Virus record (IMG/VR): IMGVR_UViG_3300031963_000562 | Span: 1 to 33,415 of that record | Reading direction: 5' to 3' (one strand) | Length of the DNA stretch: 33,415 bases | From: a virus | In this document: in pieces, positions 26,465 to 31,237 of the stretch | Layout of the letters: the number at the start of each line of letters is the position of its first letter | Position numbering within the stretch: the stretch's first letter is position 1 | Position numbers and translations under genes: made by a program | The notes under the pieces: generated by a model | Databases searched by the model: none | What the model was told of the DNA's origin: nothing | The model's input: only the letters and a program-made list of their open reading frames with translations

Positions 26465-27172
26465 ATGCCTCTACCAAAAATTGACCAGCCACTATTTGAT
26501 ATGATTATTCCTTCAACTGGAAAGAAGGTTACATTCCGACCTTTCCTGGTCAAGGAAGAGAAGATCCTTCTCATTGCTCAGCAAAGTGGTAATGATAGTG
26601 AAATCATCAGAGCTATTAAGCAGATTTTAAACAACTGTATTCAAGATCATCTAGATCTAGATACATTAGCGATCTTTGACCTTGAGTATGCTTTTCTTAA
26701 GTTGCGTTCAAAGTCAGTAAACAATGTTGTAAAATTATCTTATCGTGATACTGAAGACGATGAAGTATATAATTTTGAACTTGATCTTGATACTATTGAA
26801 ATTGAAATGCCAAAAAACATTAATTCTAAAATTGAAATCAATGATTCTGTTGGTATGACTATGAAGTATCCATCCGCATCTATTACTGATAAAATGAGTG
26901 GTTTTGAGAATGAAGTTGATCTCATGACATTCTTCATTGTTAATTGTATCGACACAATCTATGATGAAGATACCGTGTATGTTGCTGATGATTTTAGTGA
27001 AGAAGAGATCTCTGAGTTCTTAGATGGATTAGATGTTAAGACATTCGAAAAGATTCGCGAGTTCTTTGAGAACGTTCCACGTCTATATCATAAGATTGAA
27101 TATACTAATTCTATTGGAAGTGAACGATCAATTGAATTGGCGAGTCTCAAAGATTTTTTTATGTGGGGCTGA
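26465..27172 (+). CDS. 26: Baseplate hub assembly protein gp26 / tail assembly chaperone (235 aa)
   Basis: The protein carries the T4 gp26 family pattern: PLPKIDQPLFDMIIPSTGKK, VTFRPFLVKEEKILLIAQQS, IKQILNNCI and FDLEYAFLKLRSKSV, with an acidic middle and a C-terminus ending LKDFFMWG. T4 gp26 is 208 residues and is followed by gene 51, as here. A TGGAG ribosome-binding site lies 8 nt before the ATG. The last codons contain a run of seven T (27154-27160) placed in phase as a -1 slippery site, and the next frame overlaps. A frameshifted product would be about 293 residues. This layout mirrors the G/GT tape-measure chaperones of lambda-type phages. Confidence 0.85.
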   Translation: MPLPKIDQPLFDMIIPSTGKKVTFRPFLVKEEKILLIAQQSGNDSEIIRAIKQILNNCIQDHLDLDTLAIFDLEYAFLKLRSKSVNNVVKLSYRDTEDDEVYNFELDLDTIEIEMPKNINSKIEINDSVGMTMKYPSASITDKMSGFENEVDLMTFFIVNCIDTIYDEDTVYVADDFSEEEISEFLDGLDVKTFEKIREFFENVPRLYHKIEYTNSIGSERSIELASLKDFFMWG

Positions 27173-27223
27173 GTCATACGACTTTAGCAAGATACTATTC
27201 TATGATATTTTCTTTAGCTCAGC
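27154..27223 (+). promoter_or_regulatory. Candidate -1 programmed frameshift site, gp26 to gp51-like
   Basis: The heptamer T_TTT_TTT at 27154-27160 is in the gp26 reading phase required for simultaneous -1 slippage of both tRNAs. The -1 frame is open from 27136 and leads straight into the gp51-like frame, which has no visible ribosome-binding site. Seven nucleotides downstream, GCTGAG (27168-27173) can pair with CTCAGC (27218-27223) across a 42-nt loop with one extra wobble pair; this could be a stimulator, although a 6-bp stem can arise by chance. Confidence 0.55.
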
Positions 27224-27345
27224 ATCATAAATATTCGATCAGTGAAATTGAAGGTTTGATACCATACGAGAGGGATCTCTATGTTGATATGTTATTAGAA
27301 TTTTTAGAACAACAAAAACAAGAGATAGAGAGTAGAAAGACGTAA
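27163..27345 (+). CDS. 51: gp51-like second domain of the tape-measure chaperone (60 codons, probably made by frameshift)
   Basis: The frame opens with GTG at 27163, inside the end of gp26, and is in the -1 phase relative to it. The conserved part is SLAQHHKYSISEIEGLIPYE followed by RDLYVDMLLEFLEQQKQ, a short helical domain that I recall following gp26 in marine T4-like phages and labelled gp51-like (T4 gp51 is the baseplate hub assembly catalyst). Neither the GTG nor the internal ATG at 27202 has a recognisable ribosome-binding site, which favours synthesis as a C-terminal extension of gp26 by -1 frameshifting. Independent initiation by coupling to the gp26 stop at 27172 remains possible. 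The stop overlaps the ATG of the tape-measure gene (TAATG). Confidence 0.7.
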   Translation: MGLSHTTLARYYSMIFSLAQHHKYSISEIEGLIPYERDLYVDMLLEFLEQQKQEIESRKT

Positions 27346-29420
27346 TGCTCGGACAGATCGCAGCAAAATTAGGAATAAAAGCTGTAGGCACTGCCGAAAG
27401 TGCTTTAGCTGGAGCCGCAGGTGCTGTAGTTAAAGCCGGTCAAGCATTTGGAATGGCTGGTAGAGCACTTGCCAGGGCTGGCCAGAGTACTTCTAACAGA
27501 GCTTCAACATCATCGAGTAATAGAATTACTAGCAATCTGGGAATGGCTGGAACTGCTGGAAAACAAAAGATATCTGGTGGTGGAACTTTGCCGGCTCCGA
27601 AATCTATTGCAAAGCCACAAGTATCTACAAAGATGCCAACAGAAGCTCTATTAGATACGGCTGTAAAATATCTAGTATCGATCGATAAATCGCTTAAATC
27701 ACAGCTCGAATTTGAGAGACGTTCTTACCAAGAGCAGACTCAGATTGAAAGAGAAGCAATTATTGAAAGTAAGCCAGCCACCACTTTTACAGATATTAAA
27801 GACAGACTATCTGGTTTGAAATCAGATGTTAAAGACAATGCTAGTGCGGCAGCGTCAATCGCCAAGTTTGCTTTAGTACTCGGCGGTGTTGGTGCTTTAA
27901 TTGCTAGTGCGTTAGACCAAAAAGAACTTAATGCATTAAAAGAAAATGTTGAACAATTCAAAACAAAATTTAGCTGGTTAGGCGATCTAGCTGCTATGAT
28001 TCCTGCGGGTGGTATTTTCGGATTCTTATTTGGCGGTAAAGGTCTCAAGGGAAGATTAAAGGGTGGATTAATCGGCATTCTTGCTGAAGCAGTTGCTTTA
28101 ACTGTATACAACCGAATGACTGGTCAAGGTGGAGGAGATAATACTGCTGTAAACTTGGCCGCGGCTGGTGGTATAGGCTACCTTGGATTCCGAGGAGCAA
28201 AATCTGCTGTTGGTATTTCACGAAAAGTGGCTGCTGCACGAGGAACAGGAGCTGCGCTTCAGGCAGCTACAGGGTTTGCTGGAAAACGAGCAGCAGTAGG
28301 ATCAGTAGCATTCTTAAAGGGACCAATGTGGAGAAAGTTTTTAGCCTTTCTTCTAGCGCGTGGTAAAAAAGAACTTGTAAGAAAAATAGAACAACGTATA
28401 GCTATTAGTTTAGCATCAGGCGCAGTAGCTGCTACTGGTGTTGGAGCCGTCTTTGGAGCTATTGGATTTCTAGTGAATCTTGGATTTAGTTTATATTTGA
28501 TGTATGAAATTTATGGGTTGTGGAAAGAGTTTATCGCAGGAAGCCAAGCTGACAAGGCTGGTGTTGGTGATGCCGAGATAGTAAAAGAGATTAACAGCCC
28601 AGATGCCATGGCAACTAAGGGATCTATTTCTGGTGCGCCACAAGGAACTGGAAATCTTCCACCGGTTCCAGCAGATATTCAAAAGATTTTAGCTGCAATT
28701 AGAACAAACGAATCTAGTGGAAACTACGGTGAAAATTCATACAAAGCTGGAAGCAGTGCTTCTGGTGCTTATCAATTTTTAGATAGCACTTGGAAATCAC
28801 AAGCTGCTAAAGCAGGAATTGGAACAGAATATTCTAGAGCGTATTTAGCACCTCCGGAAGTTCAAGACGCCGTCGCTGCTAACTATGTAAAAAATATCTT
28901 AAGCATGCCAGACGTAGCTGGTGATGTTTCTAAAGTTCCTCTTGTTTGGTTTACTGGTAATGCGCAAGGTAGGATATCTGCTCGAGCACAGAGTGTGAAC
29001 GCTGTAACTCCTCAGCAAGTACAAGCCAAATTTATGAAAACATATGATGGTGGAAAATTTGCTTCTTCTTCATACAATTCTTCACCGGGTGTATCTGGAA
29101 TGATAAATGCTGGAGTTGAAAAGATGGGCGAAGTATTCGGTATGCTTGGTTCAGCTATTATTAAGCCAGGTGTGCGTAGAGATTTTATTCCAGCTACTCC
29201 TAATGCTTCAGAAAAAATCAACAGCGAGTCAATGAAACTTCAGAACGATATTACGTTTGGTATTAAAAAAGAAAAGAGCAAATCTGCAATTACATCTCCT
29301 ACAATTCCAGCTGGAATATCGCGTGGAGGTTCTGTAAAATCTATATCTAATTTAGATCCTAATTATAAAAATGCTAATGTTTTAACAAAATATTTAGCAC
29401 ACTTTAGGTATGCCGAATGA
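27345..29420 (+). CDS. Tape-measure-like protein with transglycosylase/lysozyme-like domain (691 aa)
   Basis: The protein sits where a tape measure (T4 gp29) is expected, directly after the gp26/gp51 chaperone genes, and its length would suit a tail of about T4 size. The N-terminal 170 residues are Ala/Gly-rich with helices (KYLVSIDKSLKSQLEFERRS). Hydrophobic segments lie near residues 168-190, 220-255 and 352-392. About residues 445-570 form a lysozyme-like or SLT-type domain: RTNESSGNY with probable catalytic E456, then SASGAYQFLDSTWKSQA. A C-terminal segment GVEKMGEVFGMLGSAIIKPG (about residue 590) and the end TKYLAHFRYAE recur in the next protein, so the two are paralogs. The likely role is to set tail length and open the wall after ejection. 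It overlaps the next gene by 4 nt (ATGA). Confidence 0.8.
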   Translation: MLGQIAAKLGIKAVGTAESALAGAAGAVVKAGQAFGMAGRALARAGQSTSNRASTSSSNRITSNLGMAGTAGKQKISGGGTLPAPKSIAKPQVSTKMPTEALLDTAVKYLVSIDKSLKSQLEFERRSYQEQTQIEREAIIESKPATTFTDIKDRLSGLKSDVKDNASAAASIAKFALVLGGVGALIASALDQKELNALKENVEQFKTKFSWLGDLAAMIPAGGIFGFLFGGKGLKGRLKGGLIGILAEAVALTVYNRMTGQGGGDNTAVNLAAAGGIGYLGFRGAKSAVGISRKVAAARGTGAALQAATGFAGKRAAVGSVAFLKGPMWRKFLAFLLARGKKELVRKIEQRIAISLASGAVAATGVGAVFGAIGFLVNLGFSLYLMYEIYGLWKEFIAGSQADKAGVGDAEIVKEINSPDAMATKGSISGAPQGTGNLPPVPADIQKILAAIRTNESSGNYGENSYKAGSSASGAYQFLDSTWKSQAAKAGIGTEYSRAYLAPPEVQDAVAANYVKNILSMPDVAGDVSKVPLVWFTGNAQGRISARAQSVNAVTPQQVQAKFMKTYDGGKFASSSYNSSPGVSGMINAGVEKMGEVFGMLGSAIIKPGVRRDFIPATPNASEKINSESMKLQNDITFGIKKEKSKSAITSPTIPAGISRGGSVKSISNLDPNYKNANVLTKYLAHFRYAE

Positions 29421-31237
29421 CTCCAGTAACAATTGGCGATCAAAAATTTATTAAAGACTTTAACAAAGGCTGGATTGATTCTAAAACCAAGCAGCCAGCT
29501 GATAAGGGATTAATTCGCCTACTCGACAGTTTGGTTATAAATGAACCTGTTTTAAAAAAACTTCGAGTGAAGATTGATACTACTGTAGAACCAGTATTAA
29601 TCAATGGGCAGAAGTTTGTTTATGATGTTAATCAGGGATGGATTGACCAAAAGACAAAAACTCCAGTTCCACCAAGTTTTCAAATCACACTGAATAATGC
29701 CGTAGGAAAACCAACTGTTCCTAATGTGTCAGCTTCGATGGGCATGGCTGGCATTGCGGGGATGCAACAAACAAAAACGACAGTAACTCCACAAGTTCAA
29801 AAGACTGGTGGAGGAACATTAGTTTACAGTAATGTGAATATCAATAAACCTATCGTAAAAATGATAGGAGCTCTAGCATCGATTGATGGGTTCTTAAAGC
29901 AAAGACTAGATAATCAAAAAAACATTGCTAAAAATAACTTATTGTCTATTAGAGAAGCTCAAATTGAGAATATAAGTCAAGATGCACAAACACAAAGTGT
30001 AAAACCAGATGCTGAAAGAATAAGTGGATCTTCAGCCGGTTTACTCGGTCTTGGAGCTTTAGCTTTATTAACATTAGATCCAGTACAAGAAGCAATAAAG
30101 AGTGTTGTTAATGGTGTTGTAGAAACTGGCAAGTTTATCACCGGTGTTGTGTCAACCATAAACAAAGCATTTACATTTCTTCTTGGTAGTAGCGCTGTTG
30201 ATCCTACTGCAACAGAATCACAATCTGAAAATGGTGCTAAAACACCGACTCCCGATGCGCAGCCAGTTACTACAGAGCAAAAGCCTTCATTCTTTGCGAG
30301 TGTAGGAGCGGGTGCAGCAACAGGAGCAGTAGTTGGATCTATAGTTCCAAGAGTGGGTATGGTTGCCGGCGCAGTTGTGGGTGGCGGAATTACTGCTTAT
30401 AAGCATTTTACTTCTAGTGGATCTACAACAAGTAATAGTTCCTCAACGTCGTCATCTGCGCCGCAAGCAACTCCAGCACCAAATGCTACACCACAAACAA
30501 CTTCAACTCCAGCACCAAATGCTACACCACAAACACAATCAACAGCATCAGCACCAGGACAAATTCCTAAGAATGATATTGTAGCTCTTGGAAATTACTT
30601 AGCATCAATGGGTGCTGACAAGAGTAAGATGGAACATCCAACTCTGAGCGGAAGAGTTGGAGATCATAGTCAAAACTCAAGACACTATAGAGGCATGGCG
30701 ATCGATGTCAATTTTCCTGGCCCGAACGAAGGTGCAATTCTTGATGCTTTAGAACCACAGTTAAGAGCTGCTGGCTATAATACTATTTGGCGCGCCAAAG
30801 GCCATGAGACACATATGCACGTGTCTGTGGGCGGTCGCGAAGGTCGTGGAAGCAGTACTACTGGCGATGCCAATAGCCTTATGAGCGTGGCATCTGATAC
30901 TGTTAACATGGGCATGGAAAAGATCGGCGAGTTGTTTGGCATACTAGGTTCGACTATTATTAAGCCGGGGGTTCCTCGAGGCAAAGTAGACTATTCAGAA
31001 GCAATCGGTGCTGCAGCTGTACAAACAAATGCTGAGATAGCAGTATCTAAAACACCCAAAGCTCTGCCTAAAATATCAATTCCACGAGCTCCAAATATTA
31101 ATAGATCTAATACTGGCACAACACAAAATCCGGCAACCTCTACAGATAAAAATAGCGTCTATTATTATTTGAGACGCTTTGGTTATCAAGATTTAAATGT
31201 TGGCGAGTCGCCATTAGTTAAAGCAACGGTAGCTTAA
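29417..31237 (+). CDS. Tape-measure-like paralog with M15-type zinc peptidase domain (606 aa)
   Basis: The first 95 residues hold two copies of an I(G/N)xQKFxxDxNxGWIDxKTK motif (about residues 5-33 and 60-90). After that, it parallels the upstream protein: GMAGIAG, GGGTL, ASIDGFLKQRLDNQ, Gly/Ala-rich hydrophobic segments (about 206-225 and 295-328) and a C-terminal GMEKIGELFGILGSTIIKPG followed by YYLRRFGY. A Ser/Thr/Pro/Gln linker (about 340-385) leads into a domain at about 390-475 with SRHYRGMAIDV and GHETHMHVSVGG. H423, D430 and the H466-x-H468 pair, with E464, fit the zinc and catalytic residues of M15/LAS-type peptidases, which cut peptidoglycan stem peptides. It is probably a virion-associated wall hydrolase working with the transglycosylase-bearing neighbour. 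Confidence 0.8.
   Translation: MTPVTIGDQKFIKDFNKGWIDSKTKQPADKGLIRLLDSLVINEPVLKKLRVKIDTTVEPVLINGQKFVYDVNQGWIDQKTKTPVPPSFQITLNNAVGKPTVPNVSASMGMAGIAGMQQTKTTVTPQVQKTGGGTLVYSNVNINKPIVKMIGALASIDGFLKQRLDNQKNIAKNNLLSIREAQIENISQDAQTQSVKPDAERISGSSAGLLGLGALALLTLDPVQEAIKSVVNGVVETGKFITGVVSTINKAFTFLLGSSAVDPTATESQSENGAKTPTPDAQPVTTEQKPSFFASVGAGAATGAVVGSIVPRVGMVAGAVVGGGITAYKHFTSSGSTTSNSSSTSSSAPQATPAPNATPQTTSTPAPNATPQTQSTASAPGQIPKNDIVALGNYLASMGADKSKMEHPTLSGRVGDHSQNSRHYRGMAIDVNFPGPNEGAILDALEPQLRAAGYNTIWRAKGHETHMHVSVGGREGRGSSTTGDANSLMSVASDTVNMGMEKIGELFGILGSTIIKPGVPRGKVDYSEAIGAAAVQTNAEIAVSKTPKALPKISIPRAPNINRSNTGTTQNPATSTDKNSVYYYLRRFGYQDLNVGESPLVKATVA
30470..30541 (+). repeat. Two tandem 36-bp units in the linker of the M15 protein
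   Basis: 30470-30505 and 30506-30541 are near-identical and encode TPAPNATPQTTS and TPAPNATPQTQS. They form part of the flexible linker before the peptidase domain. Confidence 0.9.

Follow-up and report, generated by a model that had tools for sequence, protein, structure and literature searches.

The window analysed here, that is, the whole 33.4-kb virus record of 33,415 nucleotides, comes from an uncultured phage and carries T4-type baseplate genes; its annotated relatives are chiefly cyanophages. A gene at 26465-27172 (+ strand) codes for a gp26-like short tail assembly chaperone (TAC-N, 235 aa, the zero-frame product), which matches Pfam PF12322 with an E value of 7.6e-57 and PHROG 150 (phrog_150) with one of 3.5e-60; its identity to gp26 of the closest annotated isolate among the matches listed is 41.5%. 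The gene ends in ...AAA GAT TTT TTT ATG TGG GGC TGA, and these codons contain a slippery heptamer, T_TTT_TTT (27154-27160, + strand), 16 nt before the gp26 stop and in the X_XXY_YYZ phase for -1 slippage. The -1 frame is preceded by a TGA codon just before 27136 and is therefore open from that position only, running to a TAA at 27343-27345. Translated over 27136-27345, it matches phrog_634, 'baseplate hub assembly catalyst' (gp51), with an E value of 9.9e-22. Slippage at the heptamer would add a gp51-like module (27160-27345, + strand; 61 codons after the shift plus the stop), and the predicted fusion has 293 aa with the junction LKDFF-YVGLSH. The preliminary description had claimed the exact -1 phase of the heptamer, the opening of the -1 frame at 27136 and a fused product of about 293 residues with this junction, all of which are borne out, the phase by direct reading of the gp26 frame. 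An in-phase X_XXY_YYZ heptamer inside an overlap of two frames is a hallmark of -1 programmed ribosomal frameshifting. In-phase TTTTTTN is found at 3 of 10,789 codon positions in the main genes of the window, and its chance expectation within the 12-codon overlap is about 0.003.

The next gene (27345-29420, + strand, 691 aa) starts within the stop of the gp51 frame (TAATG) and codes for a candidate tape-measure or tail-lysozyme-like protein. Its product contains hydrophobic stretches, and its match to a transglycosylase is weak (6e-5, below the Pfam cut-off). Size, position and the hydrophobic stretches make a tape measure plausible, and no profile in our searches identifies one. Of the order chaperone, shifted extension, tape measure that had earlier been likened to lambda G-GT, the first two members are supported and the third is plausible. 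The gene that follows (29417-31237) has a weak match to a tape-measure PHROG, and either of these two large genes may be the tape measure.

We compared the junction between gp26 and the gp51 frame across relatives drawn from IMG/VR loci and annotated isolates. In the first set, which comprised 77 distinct junctions, gp51 without exception occupies the -1 frame relative to gp26, and 76 of them have T_TTT_TTT, T_TTT_TTC or T_TTT_TTG in phase within an open -1 frame. The odd one (L004) has the heptamer, but its -1 frame contains a stop; this locus and L048, which belong to the same contig, come from a close relative of the window and have a TAG in the -1 frame (TATTAG, against TATTCG in the window), which may be genuine or a sequencing error. 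In the enlarged set, an in-phase T_TTT_TTN heptamer is present at the same place in 177 of 179 gp26 loci (171 distinct), mostly 10 or 16 nt from the stop, and gp51 lies in the -1 frame at all 176 distinct junctions where it is detectable. An alignment of gp26/gp51 junctions had been proposed as a check on whether relatives keep the heptamer, and nearly all of them do. The two loci without it are those of T4 and of Vibrio phage K355, and a search of the latter detected no gp51 extension. The K355 locus (L137, 2130-2400), a gp26 homologue, may rely on a different slippery site or on a separate gene.

The codon preceding the heptamer differs among loci (GAT, AGT, AAT, TCT, GCT, ACT, CAT), but its final base is always T. 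Similarly, the first Phe codon is always TTT, even in GC-rich phages that otherwise avoid it (elsewhere in gp26, TTT is used for 0 of 12 Phe codons in ACP17 and 1 of 14 in pf16). Taken together over 21 isolates, ACP17 included, these synonymous choices have a probability of about 10^-13.6 (log10 P -13.6) under each phage's own codon usage, a value that ignores shared ancestry. The site is conserved beyond the needs of protein sequence and codon usage, as is expected of a programmed frameshift. Homology in the -1 frame begins at the slip site, upstream of any start codon, and the two Phe residues are invariant in A1.

In T4, the two products predicted for the window exist as two genes. T4 gp51 (249 aa) consists of a PF12322 domain (residues 1-201) followed by the gp51 module (about 200-244) in one frame, while T4 gp26 (208 aa) has only the PF12322 domain and ends in ...GLKEFFELL. 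The -1 frame extension of the window is colinear with the C-terminus of T4 gp51, and the same families, PF12322 and phrog_634, are involved on both sides. Because T4 gp51 is colinear with the predicted fusion, the predicted product of the window exists elsewhere as a single chain; the extension is carried in frame in seven gp51 proteins. In six phages with a separate in-frame gp51, gp26 is without the heptamer even where the two Phe residues are kept, as in T4 and Klebsiella phage VAC36, whose gp26 genes encode them as TTC TTT. A short and an extended isoform that share an N-terminal domain define the G/GT (TAC-N/TAC-NC) arrangement; the two frames of the window fit it, and T4 gp26 and gp51 are exactly these forms. 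T4 itself thus has one gene for each form, whereas phages of the window's type are predicted to use a frameshift, a natural contrast in which the same dosage problem is solved in two ways.

Folding z-scores were obtained against shuffles that preserve the protein and the phage codon usage, for the 63 nt starting 3 nt after the heptamer. In 50 dereplicated phages the mean z was -3.11 +/- 0.27, compared with -0.18 to -0.72 for nine control segments along gp26/gp51, and the excess was replicated in 38 new independent loci (-2.08 +/- 0.30). RNA structure downstream of the heptamer is therefore well supported in general, and the excess found just downstream across phages is of the kind that a stimulatory RNA element provides. 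The window's own z is only about -1.6 to -2.1. In many cyanophages, AGTATGGCTC...GAGTCATACT form a stem of some 10 bp located 5-6 nt past the heptamer, and in S-SKS1 this stem has GGCGC/GCGTC in place of GGCTC/GAGTC.

In the window, the 6-bp pairing noticed earlier 7 nt after the heptamer does exist (27168-27173 with 27218-27223, GCTGAG/CTCAGC), and when lengthened to nine positions it is the best candidate for a stimulatory stem in the window's group. The 5' arm spans 27168-27176 and the 3' arm 27215-27223 (both + strand), with 27168-27174 paired, 27175 mismatched and 27176 paired. Of 29 dereplicated relatives, 20 are predicted to form this stem. It has a mean pair probability of 0.75 in the window and shows the highest covariation in the downstream scan, above that of 500 shuffles (7 cells with changes on both sides, against 2.5 expected). 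The covariation is modest, since about 84% of cells stay paired through protein conservation alone, and the observed pairing is 87%, against 84% from shuffled columns. Since RNAalifold gave no consensus structure for the 29 dereplicated relatives, the exact stem in the window is not claimed; the nine-position stem is moderately supported.

The product of the first gene was also modelled. The AlphaFold model of gp26 has a mean pLDDT of 84. With a Z of 8.0, its N-terminal domain best matches 3fgx, an uncharacterised protein from Bacillus stearothermophilus; the HK97 tail chaperone 2ob9 comes second at Z 7.1, and the next match reaches 3.0. The tool itself rates a Z of about 8 as borderline. The likeness of the modelled fold to the HK97 chaperone appears specific, though borderline. 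Foldseek against the PDB gave no significant match for the model, sequence searches of solved structures found none for gp26 and, for gp51, nothing above chance level, and no NCBIfam model matches either protein. Together with the G/GT-like layout, the chaperone-like fold points to a tail assembly chaperone pair, with the tape measure as a presumed partner.

We interpret these features as programmed -1 ribosomal frameshifting at the tail assembly chaperone locus of a cyanophage-related, T4-like myovirus, a reading of the sequence to which we give a probability of roughly 0.93. We infer the occurrence and rate of slippage and the role of the products as follows. Most ribosomes would terminate at 27170-27172 and release the short chaperone gp26 (235 aa). 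A minority, with TTT TTT (27155-27160) in the P- and A-sites, would slip back one base, aided by the downstream RNA structure, and read on through the gp51-like frame to give the 293-aa long form. In T4, the equivalent products come from genes gp26 (short) and gp51 (long), with no frameshift. If lambda G/GT is a guide, the short and long forms may cover the tape measure protein and bring in tail-tube subunits. The one-frame gp51 of T4 and the HK97-like fold of gp26 suggest that the arrangement works like lambda G/GT, probably for the adjacent putative tape measure. In lambda, Xu, Hendrix and Duda reportedly described the G/GT -1 frameshift in 2004. The window resembles it in having a short chaperone with a predicted -1 extension near its 3' end, just upstream of a presumed tape measure, and two predicted products. 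The lambda slippery sequence is GGGAAAG, whereas that of the window is T_TTT_TTT, and the likeness of gp26 to the HK97 chaperone fold is one of structure only.

Alternatively, gp51 might be made as a small free protein, either from a start of its own (GTG at 27163 or ATG at 27202) or by termination-reinitiation after gp26. Database records annotate it as a separate CDS, and the gp26 stop lies in TAATG or TGATG in KVP40 (L120), RHph_I34 (L128) and Ps15 (L134). But start codon positions vary among relatives, with none within the first 30 codons in 7757 and Aeromonas G2, and a strong Shine-Dalgarno sequence is found in only 8 of 75. In the window, GTG 27163 and ATG 27202 each have a Shine-Dalgarno match of at most 3 bases, while gp26 has GGAG. 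This agrees with the earlier remark that the gp51-like frame has no ribosome-binding site, and among the relatives neither a conserved start codon nor a conserved Shine-Dalgarno sequence precedes gp51. Moreover, the conserved residues (the invariant FF and those that follow) begin at the slip site, upstream of these starts, and a free gp51 leaves unexplained both the heptamer in 177 of 179 loci and the single-frame fusion of T4. A gp51 produced solely as a free protein from 27163 or 27202 had been named as what would refute the frameshift; the constant -1 frame, the lack of a conserved start and the continuous chain in T4-type phages argue against it, and we consider it very improbable. KVP40, RHph_I34 and Ps15 have the heptamer and the stop-start together, and might make free gp51 via reinitiation as well.

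The frame could also be changed by RNA polymerase slipping on the T-run rather than by the ribosome, with much the same products, and a run of seven T residues (T7) could slip. However, the runs are only 6-8 T long (6 in 103 of 171), TTTTTTC is common, and the reading phase is identical in all of them. Polymerase slippage needs neither this phase nor a downstream RNA structure, yet the RNA just downstream is structured, and we regard this explanation as highly improbable. An assembly error or a decayed fused gene, in which a one-base indel would join the frames, has a negligible probability and is refuted by the recurrence of the break at every distinct junction where gp51 is detectable (176 of 176), in isolates and metagenomes that are independent of one another.

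The predicted frameshift of the window is not new in kind, as the trick is known in many tailed phages, T4-like ones included. Vladimirov, Gautam and Davidson (Virology 566:9, 2022), whose work we know via citing papers, are said to have described gp26 and gp51 as the short and long tail assembly chaperones of T4-like phages. The paper on PRFect, citing Vladimirov 2022, states that some T4-like phages have a short gene and a long fusion gene (PMC10885494), and the paper on Pseudomonas phage Adele credits the same study with poly-T slippery sites in T4-like short-chaperone genes (PMC12846349). The Atkins 2016 review gives the G-T frameshift as conserved 'except T4' (PMC5009743). The preliminary description held that the frameshift is not a standard annotation for T4-like gp26/gp51. 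This agrees with the GenBank records of relatives that we examined, none of which annotates a joined gp26/gp51 CDS, but poly-T sites in T4-like chaperones had already been credited to the 2022 study. Adele (Vandenendeviridae) itself is described as having a GTTTTT chaperone frameshift (PMC12846349). It shares with the window a T-rich slippery site, a -1 shift and a chaperone locus upstream of the tape measure, but differs in its motif (GTTTTT against T_TTT_TTN) and belongs to a separate phage family. In hundreds of genomes of cyanophages and relatives, "gp51" is either left unannotated or listed as a tiny free gene or a mispredicted fragment, which the frameshift would explain: gp51 would form the C-terminal half of a fusion that equals T4 gp51.

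The conserved downstream structure and an internal Shine-Dalgarno sequence in cyanophages are apparently the less described parts of this system. Among 92 loci with Glu-Gly upstream of the slip site, Glu is encoded by GAG in 74 and by GAA in 18, whereas overall Glu usage in the same genes is 1366 GAA and 629 GAG. This places the end of a Shine-Dalgarno-like GAGGG exactly 9 nt upstream of the heptamer, or that of a GGAGG exactly 10 nt upstream; the window is without such a GAGGG or GGAGG element. In dnaX, an internal Shine-Dalgarno sequence lies at this spacing upstream of the slippery site, and the cyanophage element is like it in this respect. We tentatively suggest, at somewhat less than even odds, that an undescribed, lineage-specific cassette drives gp26/gp51 frameshifting in T4-like phages. 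It would consist of a downstream hairpin in most lineages with, in cyanophages, an additional dnaX-like internal Shine-Dalgarno sequence, and would have disappeared when the two forms came to be encoded by separate genes in the T4 lineage. Examples of the GAGGG or GGAGG element are seen in L123, L142, L145, L153 and other Kyanoviridae-type loci.
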